Below, piece by piece: positions 6,772 through 49,126 of a stretch of 64,000 nucleotides of DNA (positions are counted from its first letter, which is position 1; every line of letters starts with the position of its first letter). The position numbers and the translations under genes are program-made. This DNA comes from Rhizobiales bacterium Ga0077537. Its GTDB lineage: Bacteria > Pseudomonadota > Alphaproteobacteria > Rhizobiales > Hyphomicrobiaceae. Under the pieces are notes generated by a model, which saw only the letters and a list, made by a program, of their open reading frames with translations, ran no database searches and was not told the origin of the DNA. The stretch covers positions 1 to 64,000 of the forward strand of contig LNEM01000025.1 of assembly GCA_001464955.1 (NCBI GenBank), written 5' to 3'.

Positions 6772-7713
6772 ATGGAATTCTTACCGGACGTAGTCACGTC
6801 GCCCGGCGGCCACCATCGACTGCGACTGATGTCTCATTCGCGTATCATCTCCGATGACGACACGGAGTATTCCGTGGCAGACGACATCATGAGCTTCATA
6901 CCCTGCCAAGAGGGTGAAGGCCCACAGGCCTTCTACGACAAGTTTGGTTGGCAGAAGAACGAGAATGGCGACTATTGCGAGACGGTTGCCTTCTCAGACC
7001 GGAGGCCGCTGGCGGCTGGTCTTACGAGCCACTGCATGTTGAGACTGAAAGACAAGTATTTCTCGAAGGGCGGAAAATTTCTGCTCGACGCCGGGTGCGG
7101 ACCCATCGCGCATCCCGAGCTCTTGAGTTACGGCGACGCGTTTGAGACGCGCGTATGCCTGGATGTTTCAAGCGTCGCCTTGCAGCATGCGCGGGCTGCC
7201 TGCGGAGGCCGAGGGGTCTATCTTCACGCCTCGATCGCCGACATCCCGCTCGCATCCAGTTCGATGGACGCCGTGATGTGCTACCACGTCATATACCAGC
7301 TGCCTCTGCAACTGCAGGTGAAGGCCTTGTGTGAGTTGTGGCGCGTTTTGAAACCCGGGGGCGTGGGTGTGTTCGTCTATATGTGGCCACGGCCCGCGAT
7401 CCCGGGAATTCTCGGGCGAATGGCCAGGGTCCTGGGACTGAGAAATGAGGGACGGAACGGCGCGTCCGTCGAGGTGCCATCCTCCGACCACGATCGCCTG
7501 CAGCCGAGAGAGTGGCTCGAGGCCCAGCGGTTACCGTTCGATTTCGACTACGATGTCTACCGGGTGGTCGACAATAACTTCCTCCGTGACTACGTGAGTG
7601 CGGACCGTGCCGGCCGGAGCCTGGTTGGTTTCCTGCGGCTGATGCAGGACTTCGCCCCGCGATTGTGCGGTCGGCATGGCAGTATGCCCGCGATCGTCGT
7701 GCGCAAATCATAG
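6772..7713 (+). CDS. Class I SAM-dependent methyltransferase
   Basis: LLDAGCGPIAHPELL (motif I), LDVSSVALQHARA, ELWRVLKPGGVGVFVY; start ambiguous (6772, 6829 or 6889). Confidence 0.8.
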   Translation: MEFLPDVVTSPGGHHRLRLMSHSRIISDDDTEYSVADDIMSFIPCQEGEGPQAFYDKFGWQKNENGDYCETVAFSDRRPLAAGLTSHCMLRLKDKYFSKGGKFLLDAGCGPIAHPELLSYGDAFETRVCLDVSSVALQHARAACGGRGVYLHASIADIPLASSSMDAVMCYHVIYQLPLQLQVKALCELWRVLKPGGVGVFVYMWPRPAIPGILGRMARVLGLRNEGRNGASVEVPSSDHDRLQPREWLEAQRLPFDFDYDVYRVVDNNFLRDYVSADRAGRSLVGFLRLMQDFAPRLCGRHGSMPAIVVRKS

Positions 7714-7750: not shown

Positions 7751-8665
7751 ATGCGTGGCCGGGAAGATCGTATGAGCGCTCACCCCATCGTCAGCGTCAT
7801 CGTGACGACGAAGAACCGCTCGGCACTACTCCAGCAGGCGCTCGACAGCGTGATGCGTGCGAGGGACAGCCGCTACGATCTCCAACTCATCGTCGTGAAC
7901 GACGGCTCCACGGACGACACCGAGAGTGTCCTGTCACGCTATCCTGTCACCGTGATCCGCACCGAAGGCATCGGCATGGCGCGCGCCCGCAATCTCGGCC
8001 TCGCAGCGGCCACCGGCGACTTTGTCACGTTGCTGGACGACGACGACATCTGGTTACCCGACAATATCGTCCACCATCTCGAAATGTTCGAGCGCCACCC
8101 CGAGTACGCCGCCGTCCACGGCCAGAGCCAGCTTGCGCACGCGGACGCCACCCCTTTCGGCGATCCGGTGCCGGCCGGTCCGCTGTCCTCTGGCATGATC
8201 TTCGAAAGCCTGCTCGGTTACATGCCGCAGGTCGCGACTGTTCTGACCCGCCTCTCCGCCGCGCGAGAAGCCGGTGACATGGATGTGACGCTGACCGGCG
8301 ACACGGACTGGGATTGGTTGCTGCGCATTGCGTGGCGGCACCCCATCGGACGCTTCGAGAAGCCGGTCATGTTGTTCCGGCAGCGCGACGGTATGAACCT
8401 GGAACTCGCCTGGCGTCGGGCTCCGGCGACCTTCCGCGTCTTTCGTCGCCATGCGAGGAGGTTGCCGCCGCTGCAGCGTCTGAGAGTCGCGCGAGTCCTC
8501 CTTCGACATCGTGGGCACTGGGCGTCGGGCTTCTTTGATCACGCCCTCGACTGCTGGCGACGCGGCGAGAGCGCCGAAGCCTTGAAGGCTTTCTCTTTCG
8601 CTGCACGAACGTCGCCCGCCCACACCGCTGTGTTGGCCGCTCGCCGCCTTGGTCGCCGCAGCTGA
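7751..8665 (+). CDS. Glycosyltransferase family 2
   Basis: IVSVIVTTKNRSALLQQALDSVM...IVVNDGSTDDT...ARNLGLAAATGDFVTLLDDDD; probable start ATG 7772. Confidence 0.9.
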   Translation: MRGREDRMSAHPIVSVIVTTKNRSALLQQALDSVMRARDSRYDLQLIVVNDGSTDDTESVLSRYPVTVIRTEGIGMARARNLGLAAATGDFVTLLDDDDIWLPDNIVHHLEMFERHPEYAAVHGQSQLAHADATPFGDPVPAGPLSSGMIFESLLGYMPQVATVLTRLSAAREAGDMDVTLTGDTDWDWLLRIAWRHPIGRFEKPVMLFRQRDGMNLELAWRRAPATFRVFRRHARRLPPLQRLRVARVLLRHRGHWASGFFDHALDCWRRGESAEALKAFSFAARTSPAHTAVLAARRLGRRS

Positions 8666-8696: not shown

Positions 8697-9527
8697 CTAA
8701 GCCAGGGCCTTCAGGGTTGGTGTTTGCGTCTCGGCGTAGGCTGGGATCGACAGCAGATCGGAGACCGTCGAGAACTCCAGTCCCTTGTCCCGCACCATGG
8801 GAACAAGCGCTCGCACCGCCCGCACGGTCTGGGTTTTGGTCCAGGTGGTCGCAAGCGCGCAACCGTCGTGAAACAGGATGATCGATCCACCGATGACCTG
8901 TGGTAGCGCGGTTCGGGCCATCAGTTCGCCGTCCGTTTCCGGGAGCTTCCAGTCGCGGGTGTAGACGTCCCACCCAACGACCGTGTAGCGACGCGAACTG
9001 AGCCGCGCACGCTCGAACGGTGAGAGCCACCCCCACGGCGGGCGATAGAGGCGTGGGACTTTGCCGATCGCATCTGCGATCACCCGCTCGGCGGCATCGA
9101 TATGATCCCCGCCCAGCGGCATGAGACCCTGCTTGCGGCTGTGGGACATGGAGTGATTGCCGACGTCGTGGCCTTCGCGCGCCGCCCTCGCCGCGATGTC
9201 AGGGTACTGCTGGACGTTCCAGCCCACGCAGAAGAAGGTCGCCGGCACGCCCAACTCGCCCAGAGCGTCCAGCAGATCCTCGGTGCATGGCCTGTTGGGC
9301 CCGTCGTCGAACGTCAGGCACACTCTGTTGTCGGTTCGTTTCCCGTAATTGACGTGGCCCCCGCCGAAAGGAGGGCTCAATGCGAGCGTCATGAGCTGAT
9401 TTGGCAGGCCGGTCGGCGCGAGCGCGTCCCAATTATCCTTGGCCATAGCCCAGCGACGCTTTTGCGCACCCGAAAAACTCGACGGCATAGAAATGTCTCT
9501 GAAGTCGAAGAGGCAACGAACTCGCAT
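8697..9527 (-). CDS. Polysaccharide deacetylase (NodB homology domain)
   Basis: VCLTFDDGPNRPCTEDLLDALGELGVPATFFCVG...HDVGNHSMSHS...LYRPPWGW...ILFHDG; start uncertain (9527 or 9488). Confidence 0.88.
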   Translation of the reverse strand: MRVRCLFDFRDISMPSSFSGAQKRRWAMAKDNWDALAPTGLPNQLMTLALSPPFGGGHVNYGKRTDNRVCLTFDDGPNRPCTEDLLDALGELGVPATFFCVGWNVQQYPDIAARAAREGHDVGNHSMSHSRKQGLMPLGGDHIDAAERVIADAIGKVPRLYRPPWGWLSPFERARLSSRRYTVVGWDVYTRDWKLPETDGELMARTALPQVIGGSIILFHDGCALATTWTKTQTVRAVRALVPMVRDKGLEFSTVSDLLSIPAYAETQTPTLKALA

Positions 9528-10384: not shown

Positions 10385-11698
10385 ATGTACGATCTGTCCA
10401 CACTCCCGCCGCCAGGTGAACGTACCGTGAGCGACTTGACCAACCGTATCGACGACGACGCGCCACGGACCGCACCCGCCACGGCTCAAGCGCCCTCGCG
10501 GCCAGGGAGGGCGCTGCCCCGACGGGTTCTGCTCACCGTCTCTGGCACGATATCGCCAACCCTCGCGGCGGATATCGAAGCGCGAAAGCGGCCGCGGGCC
10601 GATTATCTGGAGATCGCGCGGCGGCTGGGGGCGGATCTCCTCGACTATGCCGGCGCTCGAGCCCTGACCGGCCGCGTCGGTTCTGCGCTGGAGAAACTTG
10701 GCGGTCCAAACCTTGTGCTGGCTTATGCCTGCTGGCGGATGCGGTCGCGCTACCGCGCGATTCTGACCGACGGCGAGCAGGTAGGCTTGCCTCTGGCGGC
10801 CTTGTTCAAGCTCATTCGACGGGGGCGCCCGCAGCACGTCATGATCACTCACGTCATCTCGCCACCCAAGAAGACGAGGGTGATCGACGCGTTGCGCCTC
10901 GTGTCTGGCATTGACCGGTTTGTCGTGTACTGCAGCCGGCAGCGCGAGTTCGTCCTCCATCGTTGGCGCTTGCAGCCCGAGCGTGTTCCCTGCATTCCGT
11001 TCATGGTCGACGCGGACTTTTTCGATCCCGTGACCGTGACGCCGCAGCCTGGACCTCGCCCGCGGATCTGCTCTGTCGGCCTCGAGCGCCGGGATTATCC
11101 GACCCTGCTTGCTGCCGTCGACGGCCTCGAGGTTGATCTCGTCGTAGCGGCCGCTTCTCCATGGTCGAAGCAGACCGATGGCATGTCGAGCGTGCGGATA
11201 CCTTCGAACGTCACCATCCGCCGCTTCACCCAATACGAGTTGCGGCAGCTCTACGCCGATTGCGACCTGATGGTGATGCCGCTGCAGGACGTCGATTTCC
11301 AGGCTGGTGTCACGGCGATCCTCGAAGCGATGGCCATGGGCAAGCCCGTCGTCTGTTCGCGGACCTCTGGCCAGACCGATGTCATCGTGGATGGCGTGAA
11401 TGGCTGCTACGTGCCGGTCGGCAATGCCTCGGCACTGAGGGCGCAGATCATCCATTTGCTGGAAAGGCCACAGGAACGGGCCCGGCTTGGCGCCGGGGCT
11501 CGCGAGGCTGTGGTGCAGCGCTTCACTCTCGATCGATATACGGAACGCCTTTTCACCATTCTGCAGGATGTCGGGTGCGGATGCGGCGAAGAAGGTGCGA
11601 CAACCAGCGCTGGCGGTCATGACGAGCGGAGCGCATCTGACGTGGCGTCGCCGCGTGCGGCTGATCTCAAAAGCTGGCGTCAGACGTCGGACGGGTAA
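10385..11698 (+). CDS. Glycosyltransferase family 4 / GT1-like
   Basis: C-terminal ELRQLYADCDLMVMPLQDVDFQAGVTAILEAMAMGKPVVCSRTSGQTDVIVDGVNGCYVPVGNASALRAQI. Confidence 0.87.
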   Translation: MYDLSTLPPPGERTVSDLTNRIDDDAPRTAPATAQAPSRPGRALPRRVLLTVSGTISPTLAADIEARKRPRADYLEIARRLGADLLDYAGARALTGRVGSALEKLGGPNLVLAYACWRMRSRYRAILTDGEQVGLPLAALFKLIRRGRPQHVMITHVISPPKKTRVIDALRLVSGIDRFVVYCSRQREFVLHRWRLQPERVPCIPFMVDADFFDPVTVTPQPGPRPRICSVGLERRDYPTLLAAVDGLEVDLVVAAASPWSKQTDGMSSVRIPSNVTIRRFTQYELRQLYADCDLMVMPLQDVDFQAGVTAILEAMAMGKPVVCSRTSGQTDVIVDGVNGCYVPVGNASALRAQIIHLLERPQERARLGAGAREAVVQRFTLDRYTERLFTILQDVGCGCGEEGATTSAGGHDERSASDVASPRAADLKSWRQTSDG

Positions 11699-11747: not shown

Positions 11748-12362
11748 ATGTCGAAGAGCATCGTCACAGTGCCGTCCGAACCAGAACGATCCCCTGCGTC
11801 CTCGCGGGCAACCGAGTTGCTCAGGGCGAAGCCGTCCGCGATCCTGAACAACGTCGGCGCAGTCCTTCGCGCCCGATGGTACCTGCGCGGCGCCACGTCG
11901 TTGGGCGCGCGGGTGCGCGTCTGGGGACGCCCGGTGGTCAATAACCACGGACAAATGATCATCCGTGACAGGGTGCGCCTCGTGTCGACGGTCGCCACGC
12001 TCGAACTGTCGGCAGGGGCGGGAGCCACCCTCGAGATCGGCGAGGGGACCTTCGTCAACTACGGCTGCTCGATCGCCGCTACCAAGCTTGTCAGCATCGG
12101 GGCGGGATGTAGCATCGGCACCCATGTCATCATCATCGACACGGACTTCCACGAGCTCGATCCCGAGCGCCGTGACCAACGGCCGCCGTCGCGGCCGGTC
12201 GTGCTCGAGGACAATGTATGGATCGGTGCGCGAGCGATCATCCTGCGCGGGGTGACGATCGGTGCCGGCAGCGCGGTGGGAGCGGGCAGCGTCGTCACGC
12301 GAAGCATTCCACCGCGTTCCCTCGCTGTGGGCCAGCCAGCCCGTGTCATCCGCCGGCTGTGA
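11748..12362 (+). CDS. Acyltransferase, left-handed beta-helix (hexapeptide) family
   Basis: LEIGEGTFVNYGCSIAATKLVSIGAGCSIGTHVIIIDTDFHEL...PVVLEDNVWIGARAIILRGVTIGAGSAVGAGSVVTRSIPPRSLAVGQPARVI; internal ATG 11748 chosen over upstream 11487. Confidence 0.87.
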   Translation: MSKSIVTVPSEPERSPASSRATELLRAKPSAILNNVGAVLRARWYLRGATSLGARVRVWGRPVVNNHGQMIIRDRVRLVSTVATLELSAGAGATLEIGEGTFVNYGCSIAATKLVSIGAGCSIGTHVIIIDTDFHELDPERRDQRPPSRPVVLEDNVWIGARAIILRGVTIGAGSAVGAGSVVTRSIPPRSLAVGQPARVIRRL

Positions 12363-12417: not shown

Positions 12418-13923
12418 ATGAATGAGGAGCGACAGGCGACGCCGACACCCCCGGTTCGGCCTCAAGGGCGAATTGCTCACAGCTTCCTGCTTCTGGGCGG
12501 CGGACAGATCGTCGGCGCCATCATCGGGCTCATTCTCAATGCAGTGCTGGGGCGCACTCTCGGCCCGTCGGACTTCGGATTGTACTTCCTGATAATCACG
12601 ATCGCCGGAGCGATGGGCCTGGTGGCAGACTGGGGACAGGCCAGCAACGTCGTCAGGGAGATTGCGAGCGGCGGACCGGACCGGGCGCGCTACATCGGCA
12701 GTGCCGCGGCACTGAGGACCATCCTGACATTCGTGGCAGCCGCCATCGCATCCTCCGTCGCATACGTGACGGGTCGGCCGGACCTCGTTGTAGTGCTTTC
12801 AGGAATCGCCGTGTTTGCCGGCTACCCGAACTACTTCGTGCAGTTCCTCGGCTATGCGCTGCGCGGAATCGATCGGACCGAACTCGATGTCCTCGCTCAG
12901 ATCTTGTCGAGGGCATTGCTCGCGATCATGATCATTTTCGCGCTGTACTTCGGCGGCGGCGTCGTCGCCGTGGTGCTGATTCAGGCCATGAGCGGCGTCA
13001 TCGTCCTTGGTGTAACTCTGAGAATGTTCAGGAGCGCAGGCCTTTCGATGGCCTGGCCGGACCGCGCGACGATGCAGGCCATCCTTGTTGCCGGAGCGCC
13101 GATCGTCGCGATGTCGTTGACGATCTCGGTGCAGGGCCTCATCGACGTTGCGTTACTCTCGATGCAGACGAACTCCGAATCTGTCGGCTGGCTCGGTGCG
13201 GCAAGGACATTCATCGGGATACTCGTGTCGCCTGCGATGGTTCTCGCCACGGCGTCGTTTCCCGAAATGTGCCGCGTCCATGATCGGCCCGACGAACTCC
13301 GTCGCGTCCTGGCGACCACCGCACGGCCGCTGCTGGCAGTTGGCGCATTAGCAAGTTGCGGCGTCTTCGTTCTTGCCCTGCCCGCCGTGCAGTTCGTCTA
13401 CGGCGCAGGACACTTCGACCCCGCGGCGCTCGCTCTCCAGGTCTTCGCGCCGTTCTTTCCCGTCTTCTTCGTCAACTTCCTGATCGGCTACGCGGCGGTC
13501 GCCATCGCGAAGAGCAGGGAAATCGCCATTGCGAAGGCAGTGTGCGTCGCCATCTCCGCCGTTCTGAGCTGGTTCTTGATCCCGCACTTCCACGCGAGTA
13601 TCGGCAACGGCGTCGTCGGCCTCATGATCTCGTTCTGCGCGGCCGAACTCTTGATGACCGCCGCTTACGTCGCCATCCTGCCACGTGGCACGGTCACCGG
13701 CGACATGCTGGTGCACGTCGCACGTGCGTACCTTTCGGCTGCCGTCGTCGCCGGTATCGCGCTCCAGTTCGCTCCCATGATGTCGTTCTGGCTCGCTCTC
13801 CCGCTCGTTCCCATCCTGTTTGGCGCAGTTGCGCTGATGACCGGACTTCTGCGCCTTGCGGATATCGAGACGATGGTCGGGATGGCCCGATCGTTTGCAG
13901 GCAGAATGAAGAAACCCGAATGA
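12418..13923 (+). CDS. Oligosaccharide flippase / Wzx-like polysaccharide exporter
   Basis: Polytopic membrane protein; LLLGGGQIVGAIIGLILNAVLGRTLGPSDFGLYFLIITIAGAMGLVADWGQASNVVREIA is typical of the Wzx/MATE-like polysaccharide exporter group. Confidence 0.88.
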   Translation: MNEERQATPTPPVRPQGRIAHSFLLLGGGQIVGAIIGLILNAVLGRTLGPSDFGLYFLIITIAGAMGLVADWGQASNVVREIASGGPDRARYIGSAAALRTILTFVAAAIASSVAYVTGRPDLVVVLSGIAVFAGYPNYFVQFLGYALRGIDRTELDVLAQILSRALLAIMIIFALYFGGGVVAVVLIQAMSGVIVLGVTLRMFRSAGLSMAWPDRATMQAILVAGAPIVAMSLTISVQGLIDVALLSMQTNSESVGWLGAARTFIGILVSPAMVLATASFPEMCRVHDRPDELRRVLATTARPLLAVGALASCGVFVLALPAVQFVYGAGHFDPAALALQVFAPFFPVFFVNFLIGYAAVAIAKSREIAIAKAVCVAISAVLSWFLIPHFHASIGNGVVGLMISFCAAELLMTAAYVAILPRGTVTGDMLVHVARAYLSAAVVAGIALQFAPMMSFWLALPLVPILFGAVALMTGLLRLADIETMVGMARSFAGRMKKPE

Positions 13924-15140
13924 ACGATGGCTCCAGTGAGGACATGATCGTGGCACAGGATGGCCGTGAGGCCGCGTCAGGCTCCGCCTCTGGCAGCGCC
14001 CGTCGTGCGCGGACCTGCAACATCGGCTTCGTGTTGGAGCAGGCCCTCGGGCACATTACGCACACGAAGAACCTTCAGGCCCATGTGCAGAACGATCCTG
14101 AGGTCAGCCCGTCTTGGGCACTGATCGACTTCAAGGCAGAAGGTATCGGCGCGCGCATTCCGGTGTTTCGCAGCAATTGGTCGGTACGCGCGGGCATCAG
14201 AGCCAACCGTCAGCTCGCGGCCATCGCCCGCACGACGCGGCTCGATGTCCTGTTCTTCCACACTCAGGTGCCAGCGGTCCTGGCGCAGCGCTGGATGCAT
14301 CGCATCCCCAGCATCGTCTCCCTCGACGCGACGCCCCTTCAGTATGACGCCCTCGGCGCTTTCTATCAGCACGAAGCGGGACCCCGATGGCTCGAGACCA
14401 TCAAGTGGCATCTAAACCGCGACTGCTATCGCGCCGCTCGTCAGATCGTCGTGTGGGCCGAGTGGACGCAGCGGGGGCTCGTCGCCGACTACGAGGTGCC
14501 TGATGACAAGATCACAGTCATACCTCCAGGCGTGATCGTTCGCGATTGGGAACGAAAGGATCAGCGCCGTGCCGAGTCCAGCATGGTCAGGATACTGTTC
14601 GTCGGCGGTGACCTCCGCCGCAAGGGCGGACATCTGTTGCTTAAGGCCTTTCGTGAGTTGCGCACGCCCTCGCTTGAACTGCACCTCGTCACCAAGGACG
14701 CGGTGCCGCCGGAGCCGGGGCTCTTCGTCTACAACGACATGCAGCCGAACAGCGCTGAGCTGAAGGCGCTTTACCACCGCTGCGATATCTTCGCGCTGCC
14801 GACGTCTGGCGATTGCCTGCCGATGGTGTTGTCGGAAGCTGGCGCCGCAGGGCTTGCCGTGGTGTCGACCGACGTGGCCGGCATTCCCGAGATCGTCCGC
14901 CACGAGCAAACCGGACTGACCGTTCCTGCCGGCGACGGCAACGCGCTCACGGCAGCTCTGCGCCCGTTGATTGCCGACCCGCAGCTTCGCCTTGATCTTG
15001 GCGCCCGCGCGCACCGGCACGTGAGCCGATACTACGATGCCGACAAGAACTCGACGCGTCTGCTGAGCCTCCTCAAGGCCGAGGCGCGCACCTCCGTTGG
15101 GGGCCGGGACAGCAAGTCATCGGCCCACGAACGCCGATAG
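13920..15140 (+). CDS. Glycosyltransferase family 4
   Basis: SMVRILFVGGDLRRKGGHLLLKAF...LYHRCDIFALPTSGDCLPMVLSEAGAAGLAVVSTDVAGIPEIV; ATGA overlap with the flippase stop. Confidence 0.87.
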   Translation: MNDGSSEDMIVAQDGREAASGSASGSARRARTCNIGFVLEQALGHITHTKNLQAHVQNDPEVSPSWALIDFKAEGIGARIPVFRSNWSVRAGIRANRQLAAIARTTRLDVLFFHTQVPAVLAQRWMHRIPSIVSLDATPLQYDALGAFYQHEAGPRWLETIKWHLNRDCYRAARQIVVWAEWTQRGLVADYEVPDDKITVIPPGVIVRDWERKDQRRAESSMVRILFVGGDLRRKGGHLLLKAFRELRTPSLELHLVTKDAVPPEPGLFVYNDMQPNSAELKALYHRCDIFALPTSGDCLPMVLSEAGAAGLAVVSTDVAGIPEIVRHEQTGLTVPAGDGNALTAALRPLIADPQLRLDLGARAHRHVSRYYDADKNSTRLLSLLKAEARTSVGGRDSKSSAHERR

Positions 15141-17153
15141 TAACCGGATGAAGTAGACTTGGTACCCGGTCGAAGGTTCGGTGACCTCCCAGGAATTGGC
15201 CGGCCAGTTGTCGTTGAACTGCAGATAGGATTTGGCGGGAGGCTGGCCCATCGGGGGATGGAAGTTCAGCGCACATATCGCGTTGGCGGCCGAACTCCAG
15301 CAGGCAGGTTTCCCCGCATCCCGCGTGCAGCAGCCGTCGCGGCCGAAGGATGGATTGGGCCCACCGACCAGGAAGCCGGGCGGGGGGCCAGGGCGCCCGC
15401 CGCCGGTGCTCTCCCATCGCGTGCGCTTTGCGAACCAGGCGTGAAACATCGTGTTGGCGGAGTGCGCCGCACCAGCGCGGCCCATGTTCGTCAGGTAGAC
15501 GAGACCGAGTGGATTGACCCCGTGGATGTAATGCACGTAGTCGAGTGCGGCGGCGCGGGCAGCGGTCCGCACTTCCTGATCCTCGGCGTAGTTGGCAACG
15601 AGCATCATGACCCGTCCCTGCATCGCCTTCGCCTTGTTGCTACCCCACGTGTAGTCCGGGATCGGTGCCCGGTATGGATCCGTGCGATCGAGATCGACGG
15701 CGAACGTCCTCGCCTCAGCTCCGGCGTGGCCCAGGAACCAGGAGCGAATTCTGTGCGACACCTGCTCCGCGACGGCCGCGGTGCCGGCAAGCCGTAACAA
15801 GGCATCGTGCGTGTCGACCTCCCAAAGCGTTGGGGCGTACGCGGGGATCATGGCATCGACGTCCGCCACCGCGGCTACCCGCAAATCCGCGTCGCCAGTG
15901 GCCTCATGGAGATACAATGCAGCCTCGAACCTCGCCAGTCTGCGGTCGCGCTCGCTGAGTTCCTGCTGTCCGTGCGCAAGCCCCTTCGAGCCTGGCTGCC
16001 GCGCCTCGTCGTTATTGTAGTAGAGAATGCCGGGGTTCTGCTCCGCCCACTGCCACGCCCGCCGCGCTCGCTCAGCCAAGTCCTCGCCGAACGATCTCGA
16101 CGACGCATCGCTGAGCGATCGGTAGATCAGTGATGCTCGGGCGAAGGCGGCGGCCGTCGAGAGTGTTGCGGCGGTTGTGGGTGGGCCGTAGAAGCTGGGG
16201 CCCGTTGCCGCCGAGGGAGGGCTGCCTCCCGCCAACGCTTGAACGCACAGAACCGAGCCGTCTTCGGCCTGCATTCGCACCAGCCACTCGAGGCCCCACC
16301 TGACTTCATCGAGCAGGTCGGGGTTCCCGTTCCCTGATTCCGGGATTTCGGTATCGTCGCCGAACGCTGCCGGGCTTTCGCTGTACGCGCTCAGCAGCAC
16401 CAGGATGTTACGCGCCGTCCACGTCGTATACTTGTTGTAGTCGCCAGCGTCGTACCACCCGCCGCGCAGATCCCTGACGGGCGGCGAGGAGCCAGGAAAC
16501 GCCGCGGGCCACGGTCGCGATTGAGCGTCCTGCCCCGGGCCGAGATGGCTCGCCCGGTCCGCCCACGCCGCACCGGCATGCTCCGGCAACTTTGCGGAGC
16601 CCGCACGCTGGTAGAAGAGCATCCTCACCGCGTGTTTGAGGACGTCACGATAGACGTCCTCTGCGATCTTGAAGTCTGCAGAGCGGAGCCCCCGGTCGAG
16701 ATCAACGACGACGTAGCGTCCGGGACGTTTGACGTCGGAAAAGTCGAACCACCATGCGCGATCGCCGGAGCGAGGATCGACTTGGCCCTGGTTCCAGAGG
16801 ACAACGTCGGCCGTCTTCATGACGGCGCCACTTGCGGCGTCGACCAGAGCCATGCGGCCCCCCGGTGTGAAGCGGGCCACGCTGTCGTAACCGACGACCG
16901 GATCGCGGATCACGGCGATCTTCCGGCTAGCCGGCAGGTAACCGAACTGGTCGACGACGATCGCCGGAACAGGACCGTTGCGGCTCATTCCGGGCGACGA
17001 CTGGAGCGAGAGGGCATCGGGCACCAGGAGCGCCGTGGCACCTTCGCGATCGCTATCCGCGGCATCCGCGCCACTCGTCATTGCGAGCATGAGAACCGCT
17101 GCGGCCACCGCCGTTTGCGCCGCCGTCCGTGATCTCCGCCCGCGAGGCATCAT
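15117..17153 (-). CDS. Secreted glycoside hydrolase family 9 (cellulase-like) with N-terminal CelD-type Ig-like domain
   Basis: Signal peptide MMPRGRRSRTAAQTAVAAAVLMLAMTSGADAAD; VDQFGYLPASRKIAVI; catalytic-type GGWYDAGDYNKYTTW; HGVNPLGLVYLTNMG...NTMFHAWF; PNPSFGRD; C-terminal NSWEVTEPSTGYQVYF. Confidence 0.9.
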   Translation of the reverse strand: MMPRGRRSRTAAQTAVAAAVLMLAMTSGADAADSDREGATALLVPDALSLQSSPGMSRNGPVPAIVVDQFGYLPASRKIAVIRDPVVGYDSVARFTPGGRMALVDAASGAVMKTADVVLWNQGQVDPRSGDRAWWFDFSDVKRPGRYVVVDLDRGLRSADFKIAEDVYRDVLKHAVRMLFYQRAGSAKLPEHAGAAWADRASHLGPGQDAQSRPWPAAFPGSSPPVRDLRGGWYDAGDYNKYTTWTARNILVLLSAYSESPAAFGDDTEIPESGNGNPDLLDEVRWGLEWLVRMQAEDGSVLCVQALAGGSPPSAATGPSFYGPPTTAATLSTAAAFARASLIYRSLSDASSRSFGEDLAERARRAWQWAEQNPGILYYNNDEARQPGSKGLAHGQQELSERDRRLARFEAALYLHEATGDADLRVAAVADVDAMIPAYAPTLWEVDTHDALLRLAGTAAVAEQVSHRIRSWFLGHAGAEARTFAVDLDRTDPYRAPIPDYTWGSNKAKAMQGRVMMLVANYAEDQEVRTAARAAALDYVHYIHGVNPLGLVYLTNMGRAGAAHSANTMFHAWFAKRTRWESTGGGRPGPPPGFLVGGPNPSFGRDGCCTRDAGKPACWSSAANAICALNFHPPMGQPPAKSYLQFNDNWPANSWEVTEPSTGYQVYFIRLLSAFVGR

Positions 17154-18349
17154 TTCTTGATCGCTTCCACGGCGGCAATTCCCGGAAGCGGCCGACGACC
17201 GAGCAACACCCGCACGAGCCAGCGCTGGACCGGCTGCTCGAAGTACATCCAGCTCACGTAGGCCGCTACGAGGCAGAGTGCGACGAACACGAACCCTGCC
17301 CACGGCGTGTAGGCCGCGATCTTGGTTCCCCAAATCACCTGAGGCAGGCCGGCAAAGCCGATCATCAGCGGGGTCTGCAGGAGATACACCGAATAGGAGA
17401 TCCCGCCCGCCAGCCAGGCGACGGAGTTGCCCCAGGATCGAAAGCGCGTTCTGAGTGCGAGCACGAGCAGTGCAGGAAATGCTACGATGACGATCAGGCA
17501 ATCGACGATCCCGTTGGCTGCCGGGGACGCGCCGCGAGGCAGACAAACCAATGCGAGGGTCGCCACCAATCCGAACATCAACGGAGCGGGACCGAAAAAG
17601 CGGCTCTCGGCGGGCGGCCGCATTCCCCGGTAGAGATAAACGCCGAGAAAGAACGTGAACGCTACGCGTGGAAAGCCGTACACGAAATTAGCCGTCGACC
17701 AGCCAACGTCGATGTTGCCGTAAGCGATACCCACTGCCATGAGCATGCAACCGCTCAGGCCGATGATCACGAGGAGCAGGCCCCGGGTCAGGAAGGGCAC
17801 CAGCAGTATGTAGGCGAGGTTGGCCACCAGCTCGAAAAAGATCGACCACGCTGCCCCGTTCAAGGGAAACAGGAACTCGGTGGGGCTCATCGGCGAGGGC
17901 AACGACGCGCCGTTGGAGATCGCGGTTACAGCGATCGCAAAGGGGTCGAGGCCTCCCCACTCGCGCTGCGCTCGCGGAAGCTGGACCATCAGCCCGATCA
18001 AAGTGGTCAGCGCAACCAGCGGCCACAGCCTTGCCACGCGCAGGGCCACGAACTCGAAGAAACCGAGGCCGGCCTCGATTTTCCTCTCGTAGCTGTTGGC
18101 GATAACGAATCCGCTCAAAAGGAAGAAGAAGTCGACGCAGAGGTAGCCGCGCTGGAAGCGGCTGTGGTCGTCCCAGAAAAGAAACTGAATATGATAAAGG
18201 AGCACCAGAAGCGCGGCGAGCCCACGGCACAGGTCCAGTGAGCGAATATGTTCTGTCGTCCTCGGCACGCCCCACCCGCCACGAAATCTCAATGCCGAAA
18301 AAACAGTAGTCGAGCTCCGGAGTGACTGCAAACCCTTACGGTTCAACAA
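17150..18349 (-). CDS. Acyltransferase family 3 (OafA/YrhL-like membrane O-acyltransferase)
   Basis: IRSLDLCRGLAALLVLLYHIQFLFWDDH...GYLCVDFFFLLSGFVIANSYERK with multiple TM helices; 4-nt ATGA overlap with the GH9 start. Upstream-most start is TTG 18349; GTG 18268 fits the family better. Confidence 0.9.
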   Translation of the reverse strand: MLNRKGLQSLRSSTTVFSALRFRGGWGVPRTTEHIRSLDLCRGLAALLVLLYHIQFLFWDDHSRFQRGYLCVDFFFLLSGFVIANSYERKIEAGLGFFEFVALRVARLWPLVALTTLIGLMVQLPRAQREWGGLDPFAIAVTAISNGASLPSPMSPTEFLFPLNGAAWSIFFELVANLAYILLVPFLTRGLLLVIIGLSGCMLMAVGIAYGNIDVGWSTANFVYGFPRVAFTFFLGVYLYRGMRPPAESRFFGPAPLMFGLVATLALVCLPRGASPAANGIVDCLIVIVAFPALLVLALRTRFRSWGNSVAWLAGGISYSVYLLQTPLMIGFAGLPQVIWGTKIAAYTPWAGFVFVALCLVAAYVSWMYFEQPVQRWLVRVLLGRRPLPGIAAVEAIKK

Positions 18350-18809: not shown

Positions 18810-20030
18810 ATGCGGCAAATCGTGAAGCGGCTTGGAATATCTCTGGTTGGTCTCGCACTGGCGGGTTGCACGAACCTGCCCGTAGCTGGGCCATCACACC
18901 GCGAGATCGAGGGCAGCGCGGTCGCCGGCGTCGTCATGGACCGCCGCACAGTGGTGCAGGATTACGTGCTGGTTGACATCAGCAACGATGTCTTGAGGGA
19001 GGTCCCTCGCGTCGGACCGGGAGCCTTCTTCCAGACATTTGGTGCCAAGCGCAATGTTTACCCGTCCTTTAAGGTCGGGGTCGGCGACTTGCTGACCGTT
19101 ACGATTTTCGAATCGGCCTCCGGCGGCTTGTTCACGCCCGGTGATGCGAGTTTGCGGCCCGGCAGCTTTGTCAACCTGCCAACTCAAGCGGTCAACCGGA
19201 GTGGGACCATTACCGTCCCGTACGCGGGGGAGGTCCGGGCATCTGGGCGGACCTTGATCGAGATACAAAAGGATATCGCGAAAAAGTTGTCCAACCGGGC
19301 GATCGAGCCGCAGGTCGTCGTGACCGCCAGCGAGCAGGTCGCGTCGTCCGTAACGATCATCGGCGAGACATCCAACAAGCTGGTCGTCCGAGGCGACGAG
19401 CGTGTCCTGGACGTCATTGCAAGATCGGGAGGTTCGCGTTTCCCGACCTACGAACTCTACGTCACGCTGGTCCGTGACGGGCGCAGTGCAACCGTCTACT
19501 TCCCCGTGCTCATCAGGGATCCGCGCGAGAATATCTACGTGGCGCCCGGCGACACGATCTATCTGTTCCGCCAGCCTCAGAAGTTCGTTGCCGTGGGGGC
19601 GCTCGGCGCCGGCGGTCAGACACAGGGCGTAACGGGGTTGTTCCTCTTCGAGGAAGAAACGCTGTCGCTGAATGAAGCCGTAGCGAAGGCCGGCGGCCTC
19701 GTCGACACCAGAGCGAACGCGCAAGTCTTCCTGTACCGCCACGAGTCGCGAGATGCTCTCATCCGGATGGGCGTCGATGTGAGCCGCTTCCCCGAGAAAG
19801 AACCCGTTCCTACAATCTACCGCGCGAACTTCCGCGATCCCTCGGTGTTCTTCTTCACGCAGCAGTTCCCGATGCGGCATCGCGATGCGATCTACGTGTC
19901 GAACTCCGACAGTGTCGAGCTTGAGAAGTTCCTCTTCCACACGCAGGCGATTTCCGGAACGATCTCCGGTGTGTCGGGTGATATTCTCTCCACTCGCAAC
20001 ACTTGGCGCGCCTTGGGAACCGGAAGGTAG
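18810..20030 (+). CDS. Polysaccharide biosynthesis/export lipoprotein (Wza-like outer membrane)
   Basis: Lipobox LVGLALAGCTNLP; FKVGVGDLLTVTIFESASGGLF...GTITVPYAGEVRASGRTLIEIQKDIAKKLSNRAIEPQVVV; SLBB-like C-terminal repeats. Confidence 0.92.
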   Translation: MRQIVKRLGISLVGLALAGCTNLPVAGPSHREIEGSAVAGVVMDRRTVVQDYVLVDISNDVLREVPRVGPGAFFQTFGAKRNVYPSFKVGVGDLLTVTIFESASGGLFTPGDASLRPGSFVNLPTQAVNRSGTITVPYAGEVRASGRTLIEIQKDIAKKLSNRAIEPQVVVTASEQVASSVTIIGETSNKLVVRGDERVLDVIARSGGSRFPTYELYVTLVRDGRSATVYFPVLIRDPRENIYVAPGDTIYLFRQPQKFVAVGALGAGGQTQGVTGLFLFEEETLSLNEAVAKAGGLVDTRANAQVFLYRHESRDALIRMGVDVSRFPEKEPVPTIYRANFRDPSVFFFTQQFPMRHRDAIYVSNSDSVELEKFLFHTQAISGTISGVSGDILSTRNTWRALGTGR

Positions 20031-20216
20031 ATCGGACCGCTGCGCGGGGTGACGGGGGGCGTCCTGCCCCGCGCAATCGTGGAGTTGTGGCCACTCGCAT
20101 TGGTTGCCGCCATGAGCCGGGCGAAAGATCGGGTTTGTAAACTACGGCTCGATCTTCATGGTACGAAACTTGGATACCTGTGCGAATAATTGCACCTCGG
20201 GAAATCATGGCGAGCG

Positions 20217-21209
20217 ATGCCGAGTCCTCAAGTAAGCGTCATTATTCCGACGTACAACCGTATTGCCCGCATCAAGCGCGTCGTCGAAGCGCTGGAGCGT
20301 CAGACTTATCCTCGTGAAGCCTTCGAGATCATCGTCGTTTCGGACGGATCGACGGACGGTACGGACGATTTTCTACGTTCGATTGCCGCCTTGGGGCGGC
20401 TGAAGCCTATTTTCCAGCCGAATGGTGGACCGGCAGTGGCCCGAAACACGGGCATCCGTGCCGCGATCGGGGATCTCATTGTTTTCATCGACGACGACGT
20501 CGTGCCGGCGCCCGGCTTCCTGAGGGCTCATGTCGAGATTCACGGGGCGGCAAGCCGAGAGGTCGCCGCTATCGGGCCTCTGCTGACGCCGAAGGACGTC
20601 AGGCTCTCTCCGTGGATCGAGTGGGAGCAGGCGATGCTCGAGAAGCAGTACGAGGCGATGGCCGAGGGGAAGTGGTGTCCTACGGCCCGGCAGTTCTACA
20701 CGGGCAACGCATCCATAAAACGGGAGCTACTCGTTGCGGTCGGCGGCTTCGACGAGAAGTTCCGCCGCGCCGAGGACGTCGAACTTGCCTACAGGCTGGC
20801 TGAACGCGGGATCGGGTTCATCTTCTCGTTGGAGCCGGCTGCCTACCATTATGCCGAGCGCAGCTTCGCCTCCTGGATGGCCACGGCCCGGGCTTACGGG
20901 CGCAATGATGCGATCTTCGCACGTGATCGTGGACAGGATTGGCTGATCCCCACCGTCCGGGAGGAGTTCCGCTTGCGCAAGCGCCCTCTTCGGATTTTCA
21001 TCACGGCCTGCCTCAAGAGCAAGCCCCTCGCGGGCCTGGGCTTGGCGAGCATGCGCGGCGTAGCAGCCGCCGCGGGGTGGAGCGGGCTCCGCAAGATCGC
21101 GGGTGCTGCCTACAGCGCGGTATTCGGGCTCGCCTACTACCAGGCATTTGTCGAAGAACTTGGGGAGCCTGATCTACTCTTCCGGCAGCCCTCACCGCGT
21201 CCGCTCTAG
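20217..21209 (+). CDS. Glycosyltransferase family 2
   Basis: QVSVIIPTYNRIARIKRVVEALERQ...IVVSDGSTDGTDD...ARNTGIRAAIGDLIVFIDDDVVPAPGFL...GGFDEKFRRAEDVELAYRL. Confidence 0.9.
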   Translation: MPSPQVSVIIPTYNRIARIKRVVEALERQTYPREAFEIIVVSDGSTDGTDDFLRSIAALGRLKPIFQPNGGPAVARNTGIRAAIGDLIVFIDDDVVPAPGFLRAHVEIHGAASREVAAIGPLLTPKDVRLSPWIEWEQAMLEKQYEAMAEGKWCPTARQFYTGNASIKRELLVAVGGFDEKFRRAEDVELAYRLAERGIGFIFSLEPAAYHYAERSFASWMATARAYGRNDAIFARDRGQDWLIPTVREEFRLRKRPLRIFITACLKSKPLAGLGLASMRGVAAAAGWSGLRKIAGAAYSAVFGLAYYQAFVEELGEPDLLFRQPSPRPL

Positions 21210-21224: not shown

Positions 21225-22532
21225 TCAGGGTGGCGCCACGACAACCCTGTTGGCGGTCTGAAGTCCCATCAGCCCCACCCGCGATTGGGAGAACAGGTGT
21301 GGCTTGGTCAGTTGCGCGTCGGGGGGCAGCGGGGCGGCGAAGGCCGTCGTGCTGTGGCGCATGGCCTCCCCGGTGACCAGCAGGAACAGGACCCAAAGTG
21401 GATCGAAGTGGATGAACCAGATCGTCTCCATGAGGTTCATGATCAGGATGTAAATGAAAAGCGCCAGCAGCGCGAAAGCGCGGCGTGGATTGATGCGGCG
21501 CACGTGTTCGAGCGAATAGACCGCTGCAACGACAAACGCCAGGAAGATGGCGAGGCCCACGTAGCCGGTCTCGAGTCTCATGTCGAGATATCCGCTGTGG
21601 CTCGACGGCATATCTCGGACGAATCCCGGCGCGTTGTTGATCGGACTGAAGGGAACGAACCAGAACGAGCGGAAACCCCAACCGAACCAGGGCTTGAGCG
21701 CGGTTTGCGTTTCGATGAAGTCCCAGATGAAGATGCGGCCGGTGAATGTGGCATCACCGTAGACGCGGAAGGCGACACGGCTGGCCAGGTTGCTGATGAC
21801 GGCGGCGAGGCCGAAATAGGCGATCGGTATGGCCGCGAGGACGGCGGCCATCGGCAGCTTGAGCTTCCCGCTGCCGAAGAACACGATGGTGGCAATGAGC
21901 GGTGTGAGCAGCGCGAATCCCAAAGCCGTCTTCGAATTGCTGGCCACGACGAGCCATACGGACGCACCGATCATCGCGACCGACAACAAGCGCCGCTTGC
22001 CGGCCAGAAGTGAATAGAAGGCGACGAGGATTGCGCAGGACGCGCACATTCCAAGATACTGCTTATGCAGAAAGTAGCCCGAATGGCCGAGTTCGACGCC
22101 GGTCCACGCAAGCATCGGGGGCGTCGACAGAACGAAGCCGGAATTGATGATGATCGCGGCGGCAAAGCACCAGAAAATGCCAGCCATGACGTCGATCTTG
22201 GGATCCCTCACGGCAAAAGGAACGAGCATCACCGCTATCAGCATGACGGCCTGCAGCCACCGTTTGACAGTTTCTGGCGGGCTAAAGGCCCAAAGAATGC
22301 TGACCGCCGCGTAGCACAGGAATGCGATCAGCAGCAGTCCAGGCGCTCGTAAAAGCACGCTGAAATCCATGTGCTTGCGACAGAACAAGGCGAGCATCAA
22401 CGTCAGCGCGAACAGGGCCGGCCACACGACCTGCGTGTTGAGAGCGCCGGGTGCGATCCGGTCGGCGACGGGCTGGATGATCTGGACGTAGGCGAAAGCG
22501 ACGATCGGAATGAGGGAGAGAAGGTAGGTCAT
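21225..22532 (-). CDS. O-antigen ligase / polysaccharide polymerase-like membrane protein (Wzy-like)
   Basis: Polytopic protein with WaaL/Wzy_C-type region: FIWDFIETQTALKPWFGWGFRSFWF...SSHSGYLDMRLETGYVGLAIFLAF. Confidence 0.85.
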   Translation of the reverse strand: MTYLLSLIPIVAFAYVQIIQPVADRIAPGALNTQVVWPALFALTLMLALFCRKHMDFSVLLRAPGLLLIAFLCYAAVSILWAFSPPETVKRWLQAVMLIAVMLVPFAVRDPKIDVMAGIFWCFAAAIIINSGFVLSTPPMLAWTGVELGHSGYFLHKQYLGMCASCAILVAFYSLLAGKRRLLSVAMIGASVWLVVASNSKTALGFALLTPLIATIVFFGSGKLKLPMAAVLAAIPIAYFGLAAVISNLASRVAFRVYGDATFTGRIFIWDFIETQTALKPWFGWGFRSFWFVPFSPINNAPGFVRDMPSSHSGYLDMRLETGYVGLAIFLAFVVAAVYSLEHVRRINPRRAFALLALFIYILIMNLMETIWFIHFDPLWVLFLLVTGEAMRHSTTAFAAPLPPDAQLTKPHLFSQSRVGLMGLQTANRVVVAPP

Positions 22533-22616
22533 TCGAGCAGATCCACGATCGTCCGCAGGAAAGTGCCGGGCGACCGCTGCCATCGAAGACGCGGACGGCC
22601 GCCCATGATGCGCCCA

Positions 22617-24842
22617 TCATTGGAAGTAGGAATGGTAGTCCTTGCCCTTGTAGGCATCGATCGACTTGAGCGCTCCCTCGTCCGCCTTGTTGAGCACGAC
22701 GCAGAGGACGCGCTCCCAAAGGCCGGGTTGCTCCGAGAAGGTCTCGAGCACGAGTTGTTGGCTCGTCTTGCCCCACTCGACGACGTAAACGAAGCCGTCA
22801 CACAGTGGGTAGAGCATCCGGAAGTCGGTCAGCGGTGAAATCGGCGGAGCCTCGATGATGATCAGATCGTAGGAGCGCTTGGCTTCCTGGATCAGCTCCT
22901 CCATTTTTCTGGAGCCCAGCAACTGGGCCGCGTTCGGCAGTCTTGCGCCATAGGGGCATGGCAGAACGTGGACCCCGGAGCCGTCCATCCTGGTCACGTA
23001 CTCGCCGAGCTTCGCCGGCTGGTCGAGCGCCTCCTTCAAGCCGACCGTGGCGCCTGCCGCGACCGACCGCGTCAACGTCTGCTGGTGCAGGTCGGCGTCG
23101 ATCAGGAGTGTGCGCAGTTCGGCGTGCATGCCGACCTGATTGGCCAGGTTGGTCGCAATCGTCGTCTTGCCTTCCCCGGCAAGCGCTGAGATCACGCCGA
23201 CCACCTGCACCGGCCGCTCTCTGCGGCCTGAACTGATGAGAGTCCAGATCAGGCGGATGCCTTCGGCGAAGCGCGAGTACGGCATCTGCAGTGCGATATC
23301 GCCGAGTGGCGCCGCGCGGCTCCGCGATCGTCTGCGCACCTTTGGCAGGATGACCGGCATGAGGCCGAGCGAAGCTTTGACCTGCCGCGGCGAGCGAAAC
23401 ACGCCAATCGGCGATCCGCGTCCGAACAGCAGCGCTGCGCCGAACAGGAGGCCTAGCGACGTGCCGCTCGCCAGCACGAACAGCCGCTTTTTCGACGACT
23501 CCGTTCGCGTGGGCGGGGTGGCGCGCGAAAGAATTCGGGCGTCGGGGAGAACGAGCTGATCGTTGTCGAGCTTGTTGTCCTCGCTGACATGCTTGAGCAG
23601 TGAGCCATAGAGGGCCCGGAGCATCGCGGCCGAACTCTCGAGTTCCCGAGCCCGTGCAGTGACATCGCTATTGGTGGACTCCTGGCTCATCACGACGCTC
23701 GCCGCCGATCGCAACTCGTCGAATCGGGCCTTGGCAAACTTGAGCTCGACCGCAAAAGTGCTTGCAATGCGCCGGCGCTCGGCCGCCATGACCGCGGAGA
23801 TCTCGGCCAGTCGCTTCCGGATTTTACGTGAGGCTGCATGGGCGGTCCCGACGCGGCTCTCCATATCGAGAGCGCGGGTCTCGACCTCGATGTATTGCTC
23901 GCGCAGGCGACTGAGCAGCGAGTTGTCTGGAATATAGCTCGCCCAGCTATCGGTGCCGTCGTTGAGTTGGACGCCTTCCCAGCGGCCGCGCGCCTCCAGC
24001 ACGGCGAGCCGCGCACTCTCGATATGACTGCCCATCGAGTTGGTCTTGTCGCCCGTCGCGGGATTGGGGTCAGATGAAAGAATGTTGTTCGAGATCTTGT
24101 ACTCCAGCAGTTCCCGTTCCGCAGTTGCGGCCTGGGTTCGAAGCTCTGCCAGTCGGTCCTGCAACGCCCGGGCCGCAATGCGGGCAAGCGCTCGCTTGGA
24201 CTCGATCGTGTAATTGATGTAGCTCGCAGCGACCTCGTTGGCGATCAAGGCAGCTTTTGCCGGGTCCTTCGATTCGAACGAGACATTCATGACGGCCGGC
24301 TGGGCCTCCCAGGTCACGAACAGCCGCTCGAACATCGCCTTGTAGACGGCGGTCTCATTGGGTTGATCGTCGGTCGGTTTCGCGGCCTGTATGCCGAGCC
24401 CACTTGCGATCCCCCTGATCCCGGACCTCAATTTGCGAACCGGGCTATCGTCTTGCTGCCCCGGGGGGGCCACTCCGATCTCAGGGTCCTCCATCAGATT
24501 GAGCTTTTTGATGACGGGCAGAAGGACGGCCTCGGACGTGACGATATGAAGCTGCGCCCACGACTCGTCCCCGAGTGCTGGGCCATGCGTCACTTTGTTC
24601 GACTGCAGGTAGCGATTGCCGCTGCTCTCGAGAACGAGCCGTACGTTGGCCTTGTAGGATGGTGGCATGGACGCCAGCATGCCCGCGCCGGCCGCGGCTC
24701 CCAGGAGCAGGAACAGGCCCCATATGGGCCACCCGCGTCTGACGATCCCCAGAATGTCCAGAGGATCCGGCGGCGCCGGTGTGAATGACGGATCTGACGT
24801 CTTCGTGTGTCGGATGGGGTTACGCATCGCACTCAACACCAC
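22617..24842 (-). CDS. Wzz chain-length determinant fused to BY-kinase-like tyrosine kinase domain
   Basis: Wzz N-terminus (VRRGWPIWGLFLLLGAAAGAGMLASMPPSYKANVRLVLES), coiled coil, Walker A SALAGEGKTTIATNLA, TLLIDADL, LIIIEAPP, tyrosine-containing tail DAYKGKDYHSYFQ. Start possibly 24827. Confidence 0.92.
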   Translation of the reverse strand: MVLSAMRNPIRHTKTSDPSFTPAPPDPLDILGIVRRGWPIWGLFLLLGAAAGAGMLASMPPSYKANVRLVLESSGNRYLQSNKVTHGPALGDESWAQLHIVTSEAVLLPVIKKLNLMEDPEIGVAPPGQQDDSPVRKLRSGIRGIASGLGIQAAKPTDDQPNETAVYKAMFERLFVTWEAQPAVMNVSFESKDPAKAALIANEVAASYINYTIESKRALARIAARALQDRLAELRTQAATAERELLEYKISNNILSSDPNPATGDKTNSMGSHIESARLAVLEARGRWEGVQLNDGTDSWASYIPDNSLLSRLREQYIEVETRALDMESRVGTAHAASRKIRKRLAEISAVMAAERRRIASTFAVELKFAKARFDELRSAASVVMSQESTNSDVTARARELESSAAMLRALYGSLLKHVSEDNKLDNDQLVLPDARILSRATPPTRTESSKKRLFVLASGTSLGLLFGAALLFGRGSPIGVFRSPRQVKASLGLMPVILPKVRRRSRSRAAPLGDIALQMPYSRFAEGIRLIWTLISSGRRERPVQVVGVISALAGEGKTTIATNLANQVGMHAELRTLLIDADLHQQTLTRSVAAGATVGLKEALDQPAKLGEYVTRMDGSGVHVLPCPYGARLPNAAQLLGSRKMEELIQEAKRSYDLIIIEAPPISPLTDFRMLYPLCDGFVYVVEWGKTSQQLVLETFSEQPGLWERVLCVVLNKADEGALKSIDAYKGKDYHSYFQ

Positions 24843-25425: not shown

Positions 25426-26634
25426 TTGGTCTTGCTGTACTCGAGTGCCCTGGGCGTGGTTCATGCTGGCTTTGTCTTTGCAGCAGCCGTGCTTCTCATT
25501 TTGACATTGGTGCTTGCGTTGGAGTTGGCCGCTACGGCCCTGTTGCCCGCGCGCGGAGCGTCTGGTTCGGAACGGCGTGCAAGCTCCTACGTCGTTGTGA
25601 TGCCGGCTCATAACGAAGCCGCTGTCATCAAAGGCACGCTGGCAGGCGTGCTCGCCGATCTCACCGAAAGCGGTCGGGTGCTGGTTGTGGCGGACAATTG
25701 CACGGACGCGACGGCCGCGATCGCGCGCGATTGCGGCGTTCAGGTGATCGAGCGTATCGACCCCGCCCGCCGCGGCAAGGGCTACGCGCTCGCGCATGCG
25801 GTCCGCTTTATGGGTGCCGATCCGCCGGCCGTAGTGATTGTCCTCGACGCCGATTGCCAGCCCGAACGAGGTAGCCTGGCTCTACTGGCAGCGACCGCCG
25901 AGCACCGGAATTGTCCAGTACAGGGGCGGTACGAGTTGATCGCGCCCGGCGAGAACGCGGGCACCCTGGCCCGCGTTGGAGCTTTCGCGTGGCGGATCAA
26001 GAACAGCTTGAGGCCGCAGGGACTAGCCGCCCTGGGCGCGCCGTGTCTCTTGATGGGAACCGGCATGGCCTTTCCCTGGCGCGTGCTCTCGCCGTCGCAT
26101 CTCGACACGGGGCATCTCGTCGAGGACATGGTTCTCGGCCTAGAACTCGCAGCCGAGGGCCAATACCCGGTGTTCTTTCCTCAGGCCTGCGTCCGCAGCG
26201 CGATCCCGCCGAGCGTCGAGGGCCAGAAGTCCCAACGGGCACGCTGGGAGACGGGGCATCTGCAAGTCATCCGGACCTGGGTGCCGCGCCTGATGGCGCG
26301 ATCTCTGGCGAAACGAGACTGGCGGCTGGCGCTGCTCGCGCTTCATACGGCGGTGCCACCGCTGGCGCTCCTGGTACTCTTGTTGGTGCTTGTGACGGCG
26401 GGAAGCACGATCGTTGCGCTGGCAGGTGGCCCCGCGTTCGCGCTTGCGACTGCTCTCGTGGCCGTCGCGGTTGCCGGTGGCGTCTTCTGCACCTATTGGC
26501 TGCGGTCTGGGCGTGATGTCTTGACGCCAGGCGAGTTGGTGCTGTTACCCGGTTACATTTTGTCGAAGGTGCCGCTCTACGTTCATGCCGCCGCCGGCAA
26601 GTCGCTCGAGTGGGTGCGCTCGAAGCGCGATTGA
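25426..26634 (+). CDS. Membrane-associated glycosyltransferase family 2
   Basis: SSYVVVMPAHNEAAVIKGTLAGVL...VLVVADNCTDATAAIARD...VLDADCQPERGSL, C-terminal TM helices; TTG start at 25426. Confidence 0.87.
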   Translation: MVLLYSSALGVVHAGFVFAAAVLLILTLVLALELAATALLPARGASGSERRASSYVVVMPAHNEAAVIKGTLAGVLADLTESGRVLVVADNCTDATAAIARDCGVQVIERIDPARRGKGYALAHAVRFMGADPPAVVIVLDADCQPERGSLALLAATAEHRNCPVQGRYELIAPGENAGTLARVGAFAWRIKNSLRPQGLAALGAPCLLMGTGMAFPWRVLSPSHLDTGHLVEDMVLGLELAAEGQYPVFFPQACVRSAIPPSVEGQKSQRARWETGHLQVIRTWVPRLMARSLAKRDWRLALLALHTAVPPLALLVLLLVLVTAGSTIVALAGGPAFALATALVAVAVAGGVFCTYWLRSGRDVLTPGELVLLPGYILSKVPLYVHAAAGKSLEWVRSKRD

Positions 26635-26721
26635 CGGATCGCAGCCATGCCGTCGAGGGTATGGTTCGGTTGGCCGTTGGCAGGCACGCTCGTTTCCAAG
26701 CCTCACCGCGAAGATCAGGTC

Positions 26722-30811: not shown

Positions 30812-30822
30812 GGTCTCGGTCT

Positions 30823-31842: not shown

Positions 31843-31857
31843 TTCGTGCGGTCGGCG

Positions 31858-33989: not shown

Positions 33990-34023
33990 GAGAAACTATC
34001 CTGTACTATCCTCACACATTTTC

Positions 34024-42439: not shown

Positions 42440-42477
42440 GATTGAGACAGGTTCGAACCGCTCTGTTGGAGGACTTG

Positions 42478-43764: not shown

Positions 43765-43841
43765 TCGCCTGAGCTTGAACGACACCGCCCGCCGCGCCGA
43801 TCGTGCGTGGCGGGCGGCGCTGACCCGAGGGGGGGCCGTCC

Positions 43842-46612: not shown

Positions 46613-46616
46613 CCCC

Positions 46617-47384: not shown

Positions 47385-47397
47385 GGAGGGAACGAGA

Positions 47398-49104: not shown

Positions 49105-49126
49105 ACGTCACCGAAGTTGAGGCCGC

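Follow-up and report, generated by a model that had tools for sequence, protein, structure and literature searches.

Why should the exopolysaccharide (EPS) locus of an alphaproteobacterium encode a glycoside hydrolase of family 9 (GH9), whose bacterial members are usually annotated as biomass cellulases? The gene in question lies in a stretch of 64,000 nucleotides from Rhizobiales bacterium Ga0077537 (contig LNEM01000025.1, positions 1 to 64,000; hereafter the window), directly downstream of a gene for a membrane acyltransferase of the acyltransferase-3 (AT3) family. A first-pass annotation had proposed that the two proteins acylate and trim the polysaccharide made by the locus. Our analysis indicates that GH9 is probably a dedicated glycanase of the Wzx/Wzy-type EPS of this locus, in which AT3 would acylate the polymer or its repeat unit and GH9 would cut beta-1,4 bonds of the main chain. 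Because its relatives keep the same kind of GH9 in similar gene clusters, the predicted function of GH9 is most likely to trim the bacterium's own slime polysaccharide rather than plant material. Further, the existence of an EPS-dedicated GH9 lineage is well supported.

The window contains a complete Wzx/Wzy exopolysaccharide locus at approximately 0.7-34.9 kb (Table 1). Profile searches detected the priming PHPT (WcaJ), Wzx, Wzy, the Wzc-type co-polymerase and the OPX protein all together, confirming that GH9 and AT3 reside inside an EPS locus.

The GH9 protein carries the catalytic PF00759 domain at residues 168-671 (E=1.4e-55; 189.9 bits against a curated cut-off of 27.7), preceded by the Ig-like CelD_N domain PF02927 at residues 63-149 (E=6.4e-13). 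Its N-terminus, MMPRGRRSRTAAQTAVAAAVLMLAMTSGADA followed by AD, shows a basic start, a hydrophobic stretch (maximum KD12 of 2.3 from residue 14) and an AxA cleavage motif (ADA/AD, cut at the slash). Thus the signal peptide and Ig-like N-domain of the first-pass annotation were both found. The signal peptide is of the Sec type and spans residues ~1-31. Since such a signal alone delivers the protein to the periplasm, the term "secreted", in the sense of beyond the outer membrane, goes too far for GH9. The catalytic residues D235, D238 and E659 (the DAGD pair and the C-terminal Glu) were invariant in the aligned relatives. Both motifs cited earlier as evidence of an intact active site, WYDAGDYNKY (first residue 233) and SWEVTEPS, were present; in the latter, it is the second E (E659) that is invariant, and the first is replaced by A, S, P or Q in relatives. 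The signal peptide and the intact catalytic residues ruled out a cytoplasmic protein or a pseudo-enzyme. The C-terminus lacks a binding module, including any carbohydrate-binding module.

We examined whether the association of GH9 with EPS genes extends beyond the window. Close relatives of GH9 were present in 8 of 103 genomes of the same family, including that of the window, and these represented four genera. The relatives at 53-61% identity (seven genomes, three other genera of the family) sit in EPS-type loci. In the Hyphomicrobium-like genomes G042, G047, G054 and G056, the GH9 locus carries WcaJ and Wzy, with Wzc and OPX on most; that of G019 carries wzy, a GT4 glycosyltransferase and AT3, and that of G025 wzy, GT2 glycosyltransferases and AT3. 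The EPS loci of four relatives are clearly complete, and fewer genes are visible on draft contigs. The two short contigs of G028 show just a GT2 and a bactofilin fusion also found in G025. This gene, which adjoins GH9 in two relatives (L100:10667-11899 and L101:1401-2639), joins a bactofilin to a calcineurin-like phosphoesterase, a combination that is unusual in an EPS-type region. The G042 locus encodes a second hydrolase, an apiosidase-like glycoside hydrolase (PF13204; L098:11324-12841).

The same search was applied to 80 GH9 relatives and their loci from a genome collection, 46 with at least 20 kb and 71 with at least 10 kb of sequence; as a control of sensitivity, it recognized the exo region of Sinorhizobium meliloti pSymB. 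At the sensitivity used, wzy together with glycosyltransferase neighbors was detected at a single locus, that of a Hyphomicrobium on the same contig as G047. A Massilia locus gave a WcaJ match 8 kb from GH9, and a few others gave single weak matches. In the former, from Massilia frigida, the GH9 belongs to another branch (L065:1660 and 9767), possibly a second, independent EPS association. Approximately 79 more distant homologues (36-50% identity) were thus nearly all outside EPS loci, and no EPS neighbors were found for the distant GH9s of other Alphaproteobacteria. Further, when 62 neighbors at 14 non-EPS GH9 loci were scanned against Pfam, no glycosyltransferase or export family was matched by two or more of them; the scan gave a fucosidase, GH43, TonB receptors and housekeeping genes.

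In a phylogeny of 83 GH9 sequences, a comparison that the first-pass annotation had suggested as a check, the EPS label needed one change, indicating an EPS-associated GH9 lineage. The window protein grouped with that of G019 (SH-aLRT 99), and the two were then joined by a Bradyrhizobium metagenome-assembled genome (97). Support was 83 for the EPS lineage alone and 100 for this lineage plus a Polyangiaceae sequence. The dN/dS values in four GH9 relatives were 0.10-0.14, showing purifying selection. Matches on plasmids reached at most 33-40% identity, and none fell in the EPS clade; the GH9 genes present on Klebsiella plasmids are only distantly similar (about 29%).

An ordinary cellulase or hemicellulase that acts on exogenous material, for nutrition or plant colonization, and lies in the EPS locus by chance would be consistent with the closest sequences outside the clade (44-50% identity), whose lineages include cellulolytic bacteria such as Cellvibrio, Fibrobacter and Cytophaga. 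Further, a putative endoglucanase of unstated family in a gum-like EPS cluster of Kozakia baliensis with GumD- and GumM-type genes was read in this way by its authors (PMC5050591). However, the EPS position of GH9 is kept in four genera, the protein has no carbohydrate-binding module, and the genome content argues against such a role. In the genome assembly (4.84 Mb, 100% complete), the EPS-locus gene is the single GH9, and no GH8 or GH5 cellulase was found in a survey that covered GH9, GH5 and GH8, unlike the several cellulase families of a plant cell-wall degrading system. We therefore consider the chance placement of an exogenous cellulase improbable; the gene content of the genome and the conservation of the EPS surroundings led us to reject plant-wall degradation as the main role of GH9. 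The genome also has no cellulose synthase (BcsA/CelA) over the cut-off (best 40.8 bits versus 699), so that the bacterium makes no cellulose that GH9 could trim, and this role was ruled out. These results agree with the initial assignment of GH9 to EPS synthesis rather than to attack on plant walls.

We next considered which bond the enzyme cuts. The AlphaFold2 model of GH9 (pTM 0.88) consists of an (alpha/alpha)6 barrel with an N-terminal Ig-like domain. Its best Foldseek matches were the endoglucanases 3X17, 6DHT and CelD (TMt 0.85-0.86), followed by the xanthanase 6FHJ and then by exo-glucosaminidases. An EPS enzyme whose target is not a beta-1,4-glucan but a different linkage, such as that of an amino sugar (an exo-beta-glucosaminidase would be one case), is thus compatible with the fold, since the GH9 exo-glucosaminidases 5DGQ and 6GDT match it, at lower scores. 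The locus contains amino-sugar synthesis genes as well as a polysaccharide deacetylase, suggesting that a sugar of the polymer is N-acetylated and partly deacetylated. In contrast, the endoglucanase structures fit far better than those exo-glucosaminidases (TMt 0.66-0.68), and the sequence matches were endoglucanases, cellobiohydrolases, a xyloglucanase and, weakly, a xanthanase. We regard an amino-sugar substrate as unlikely.

A beta-1,4-glucosyl backbone of the window EPS is plausible from the gene content. The GT26 family, which also makes ManNAc and ManNAcA linkages, has one member in the genome, and its gene directly follows that of the WcaJ-type enzyme. These two families, side by side, are those of GumD and GumM: in xanthan synthesis, the carrier receives Glc-1-P from GumD, and GumM, a GT26 enzyme, then extends Glc-PP-Und by a beta-1,4-linked Glc (PMC4443731). 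A cellobiose-type start of the repeat unit is therefore plausible. GH9 enzymes are able to attack such polymers, since GH9 xanthanases cut the decorated cellulosic backbone of the bacterial EPS xanthan (PMC10881899). These xanthanases (6FHJ, MiXen) share the family and fold of the window GH9; however, they are multi-modular and degrade the xanthan of other bacteria, whereas the window GH9 has no accessory module and is encoded in a biosynthetic locus.

The upstream protein matched PF01757 (E=1.1e-28, 100.7 bits) and possesses the R-X10-H (R15/H26, TMH1) and RXXR (R77-R80, TMH3) motifs that define the AT3 family (PMC9833829). Crude hydropathy gave 8 transmembrane segments, compared with about ten helices in the family. 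Direct inspection confirmed the reported ATGA overlap: the end of AT3 (AAG AAA TGA) shares A and TG with the first ATG of GH9 at 17153. The earlier boundary of the module at 18349 was not retained; it is merely that of the longest open frame (TTG), and AT3 probably starts near the GTG at 18268, because the Pfam domain begins 9 residues past it. Scans for promoters and terminators around the pair revealed nothing above chance.

Five loci have an AT3 gene upstream of GH9 on the same strand, at a distance of no more than about 5.5 kb. AT3 overlaps GH9 in the window, is about 2 kb upstream in G019 with wzy between, and is 1.6 kb upstream in G042 with GT4 between; G047 and G054 each have two. In G025, 7 kb separate GH9 from an AT3 on the opposite strand, and the G056 locus is split between contigs. 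A search with the window AT3 recovered that of G019 alone, leaving the Hyphomicrobium-type AT3s unmatched, and orthology of AT3 across the loci was rejected. Thus, the association of GH9 with EPS loci is conserved and the presence of AT3 is common, and tight GH9-AT3 pairing is local. The survey of neighborhoods thus supports in part the dedicated module with AT3 proposed in the first-pass annotation.

Whether AT3 and GH9 form a functional pair at all is close to an even question. The alternative, to which we give slightly less than an even chance, is that each serves the EPS independently and that the overlap reflects operon packing. GT4 adjoins GH9 in three of the Hyphomicrobium-type (g10) loci, and many EPS loci carry AT3 genes, which makes proximity alone weak evidence of pairing. 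Set against this are the same-strand upstream position described above, the closest relative, G019, where a matching AT3 is retained within the same gene series, and the presence of only two AT3 genes in the window's own genome. Several observations weigh against our overall proposal: direct adjacency of AT3 and GH9 occurs in the window alone; the mixed specificities of GT26 leave the beta-1,4-Glc linkage no more than a possibility; the EPS loci compared all come from one family; and GH9, which is missing from three genomes of the same genus and present in just the 8 of 103 of the family, is accessory.

We infer the beta-1,4-glucosyl substrate, the site of action, the effect on chain length and the acceptor of AT3. 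In the proposed pathway, the repeat unit would be built and then flipped across the inner membrane. AT3, which would be expressed in the same transcription unit as GH9, would carry acyl groups through the inner membrane and, on its periplasmic side, attach them either to the polymer or to the lipid-linked repeat unit. Wzy and Wzc would polymerize the acylated units and OPX would export the polymer. GH9 would enter the periplasm by its Sec signal, perhaps passing further out, and hydrolyze some of the beta-1,4-glycosidic bonds of the main chain, which may set chain length or clear stalled polymer. Gating of this cleavage by acylation, which might either permit or prevent it, is speculative.

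The remaining features of the locus are listed in Table 1. The orphan protein at its head matched no family in Pfam or NCBIfam and had no homologue among the 103 family genomes, and its structure prediction without an alignment (mean pLDDT 35) was too low to use. EpsB of Myxococcus xanthus is among the nearest known comparisons, and several window glycosyltransferases match models of its locus. Downstream of the EPS locus, a urea-type ABC transporter and a urease operon (42442-54055, plus strand) appeared ordinary by their translations.

Table 1. Features of the exopolysaccharide locus in the window
Feature	Position	Strand	Basis or remark
GalE-like UDP-glucose 4-epimerase	678..1670 (probable start 678)	plus	Translation; pSymB GalE region scores 385 bits against the window protein
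Secreted orphan protein, head of locus	1842..3095	plus	417 aa; no family match
WcaJ-type undecaprenyl-phosphate glucose-1-phosphate transferase (priming)	3945..5414	plus	TIGR03023, 411.1 bits vs cut-off 410.75; PF02397
GT26 (WecG/TagA/CpsF; family of xanthan GumM)	5523..6290	plus	PF03808
Methyltransferase	6772..7713	plus	
GT2 glycosyltransferase	7751..8665	plus	
Polysaccharide deacetylase (NodB/PgdA-like)	8697..9527	minus	
GT4 glycosyltransferase	10385..11698	plus	
Hexapeptide O-acetyltransferase	11748..12362 (probable start 11748)	plus	
Wzx flippase	12418..13923	plus	
GT4 glycosyltransferase	13932..15140	plus	Convergent with GH9; 24-bp overlap of 3' ends
GH9 glycoside hydrolase	15117..17153	minus	678 aa; PF00759 and CelD_N matches
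AT3 membrane acyltransferase (PF01757)	17150..18268	minus	R15-X10-H26 and R77-V-A-R80 motifs
OPX/Wza-type export protein	18810..20030	plus	PF02563
GT2 glycosyltransferase	20190..21209	plus	344 bits to M. xanthus EpsD model
Wzy polymerase (Wzy_C)	21225..22583	minus	
Wzc-type co-polymerase with tyrosine autokinase	22617..24842	minus	
GT2 (EpsU-like)	25426..26634	plus	
Second hexapeptide acetyltransferase	26647..27288	plus	From translation
Two GT4 glycosyltransferases	27293..29933	minus	
Amino-sugar genes: two DegT aminotransferases, SDR epimerase/dehydratase, Gfo/Idh dehydrogenase, hexapeptide acyltransferase	29636..34854	minus	

A glycanase and an acyltransferase in an EPS locus constitute a known kind of system, and GH9 in that role is a variant of it. 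Enzymes of GH16, GH8 and other families are known to trim the polymer in EPS loci. In bacterial cellulose operons, the gene for the beta-1,4-glucanase BcsZ (GH8) lies next to those for the polymer's synthase and exporter; the window GH9 differs in family, and its genome has no cellulose synthase. The nearest working analogue is ExoH-ExoK of the S. meliloti succinoglycan locus (operon exoHKLAMON), in which, as in the window, an AT3 gene directly precedes the gene for a glycanase. ExoK is a beta-1,3-1,4-glucanase of family GH16. Succinoglycan of the exoH mutant is refractory to the glycanases ExoK and ExsH (PMC4916376), and AT3s acylate both succinoglycan (ExoH/ExoZ) and xanthan (GumF/G) (PMC9558356). 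In the window, the predicted secreted glycanase directly downstream of AT3 belongs to GH9 and not to GH16, and a link between acylation and cleavage, as in S. meliloti, would be hypothetical. In plants, GH9 endo-beta-1,4-glucanases of the KORRIGAN type are implicated in cellulose biosynthesis (PMC3557191); their likeness to the window GH9 is one of role only. The window GH9 matched none of the NCBIfam models of EPS systems. Further, the literature searched contained no earlier report of GH9 in EPS trimming, apart from the putative endoglucanase of unstated family in the gum-like cluster of Kozakia (PMC5050591).

A more specific possibility, which we regard as doubtful, is that a GH9 lineage was recruited from degradative cellulases into EPS synthesis and joined with AT3 in a module that trims a heteropolysaccharide of cellulose backbone under the control of acylation. 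Such a module would be convergent with ExoH/ExoK, and acyl groups would decide where or whether GH9 cuts.

The existence of a GH9 clade tied to Wzx/Wzy EPS loci means that annotation of such enzymes as biomass cellulases can mislead. The clade points to main chains that GH9 can cleave, probably of the beta-1,4-gluco type, in the polymers of these loci, and it offers a specific enzyme for dissecting these EPSs. Further, with the overlapping AT3 and GH9 genes, acylation-dependent trimming becomes directly testable outside the succinoglycan system.
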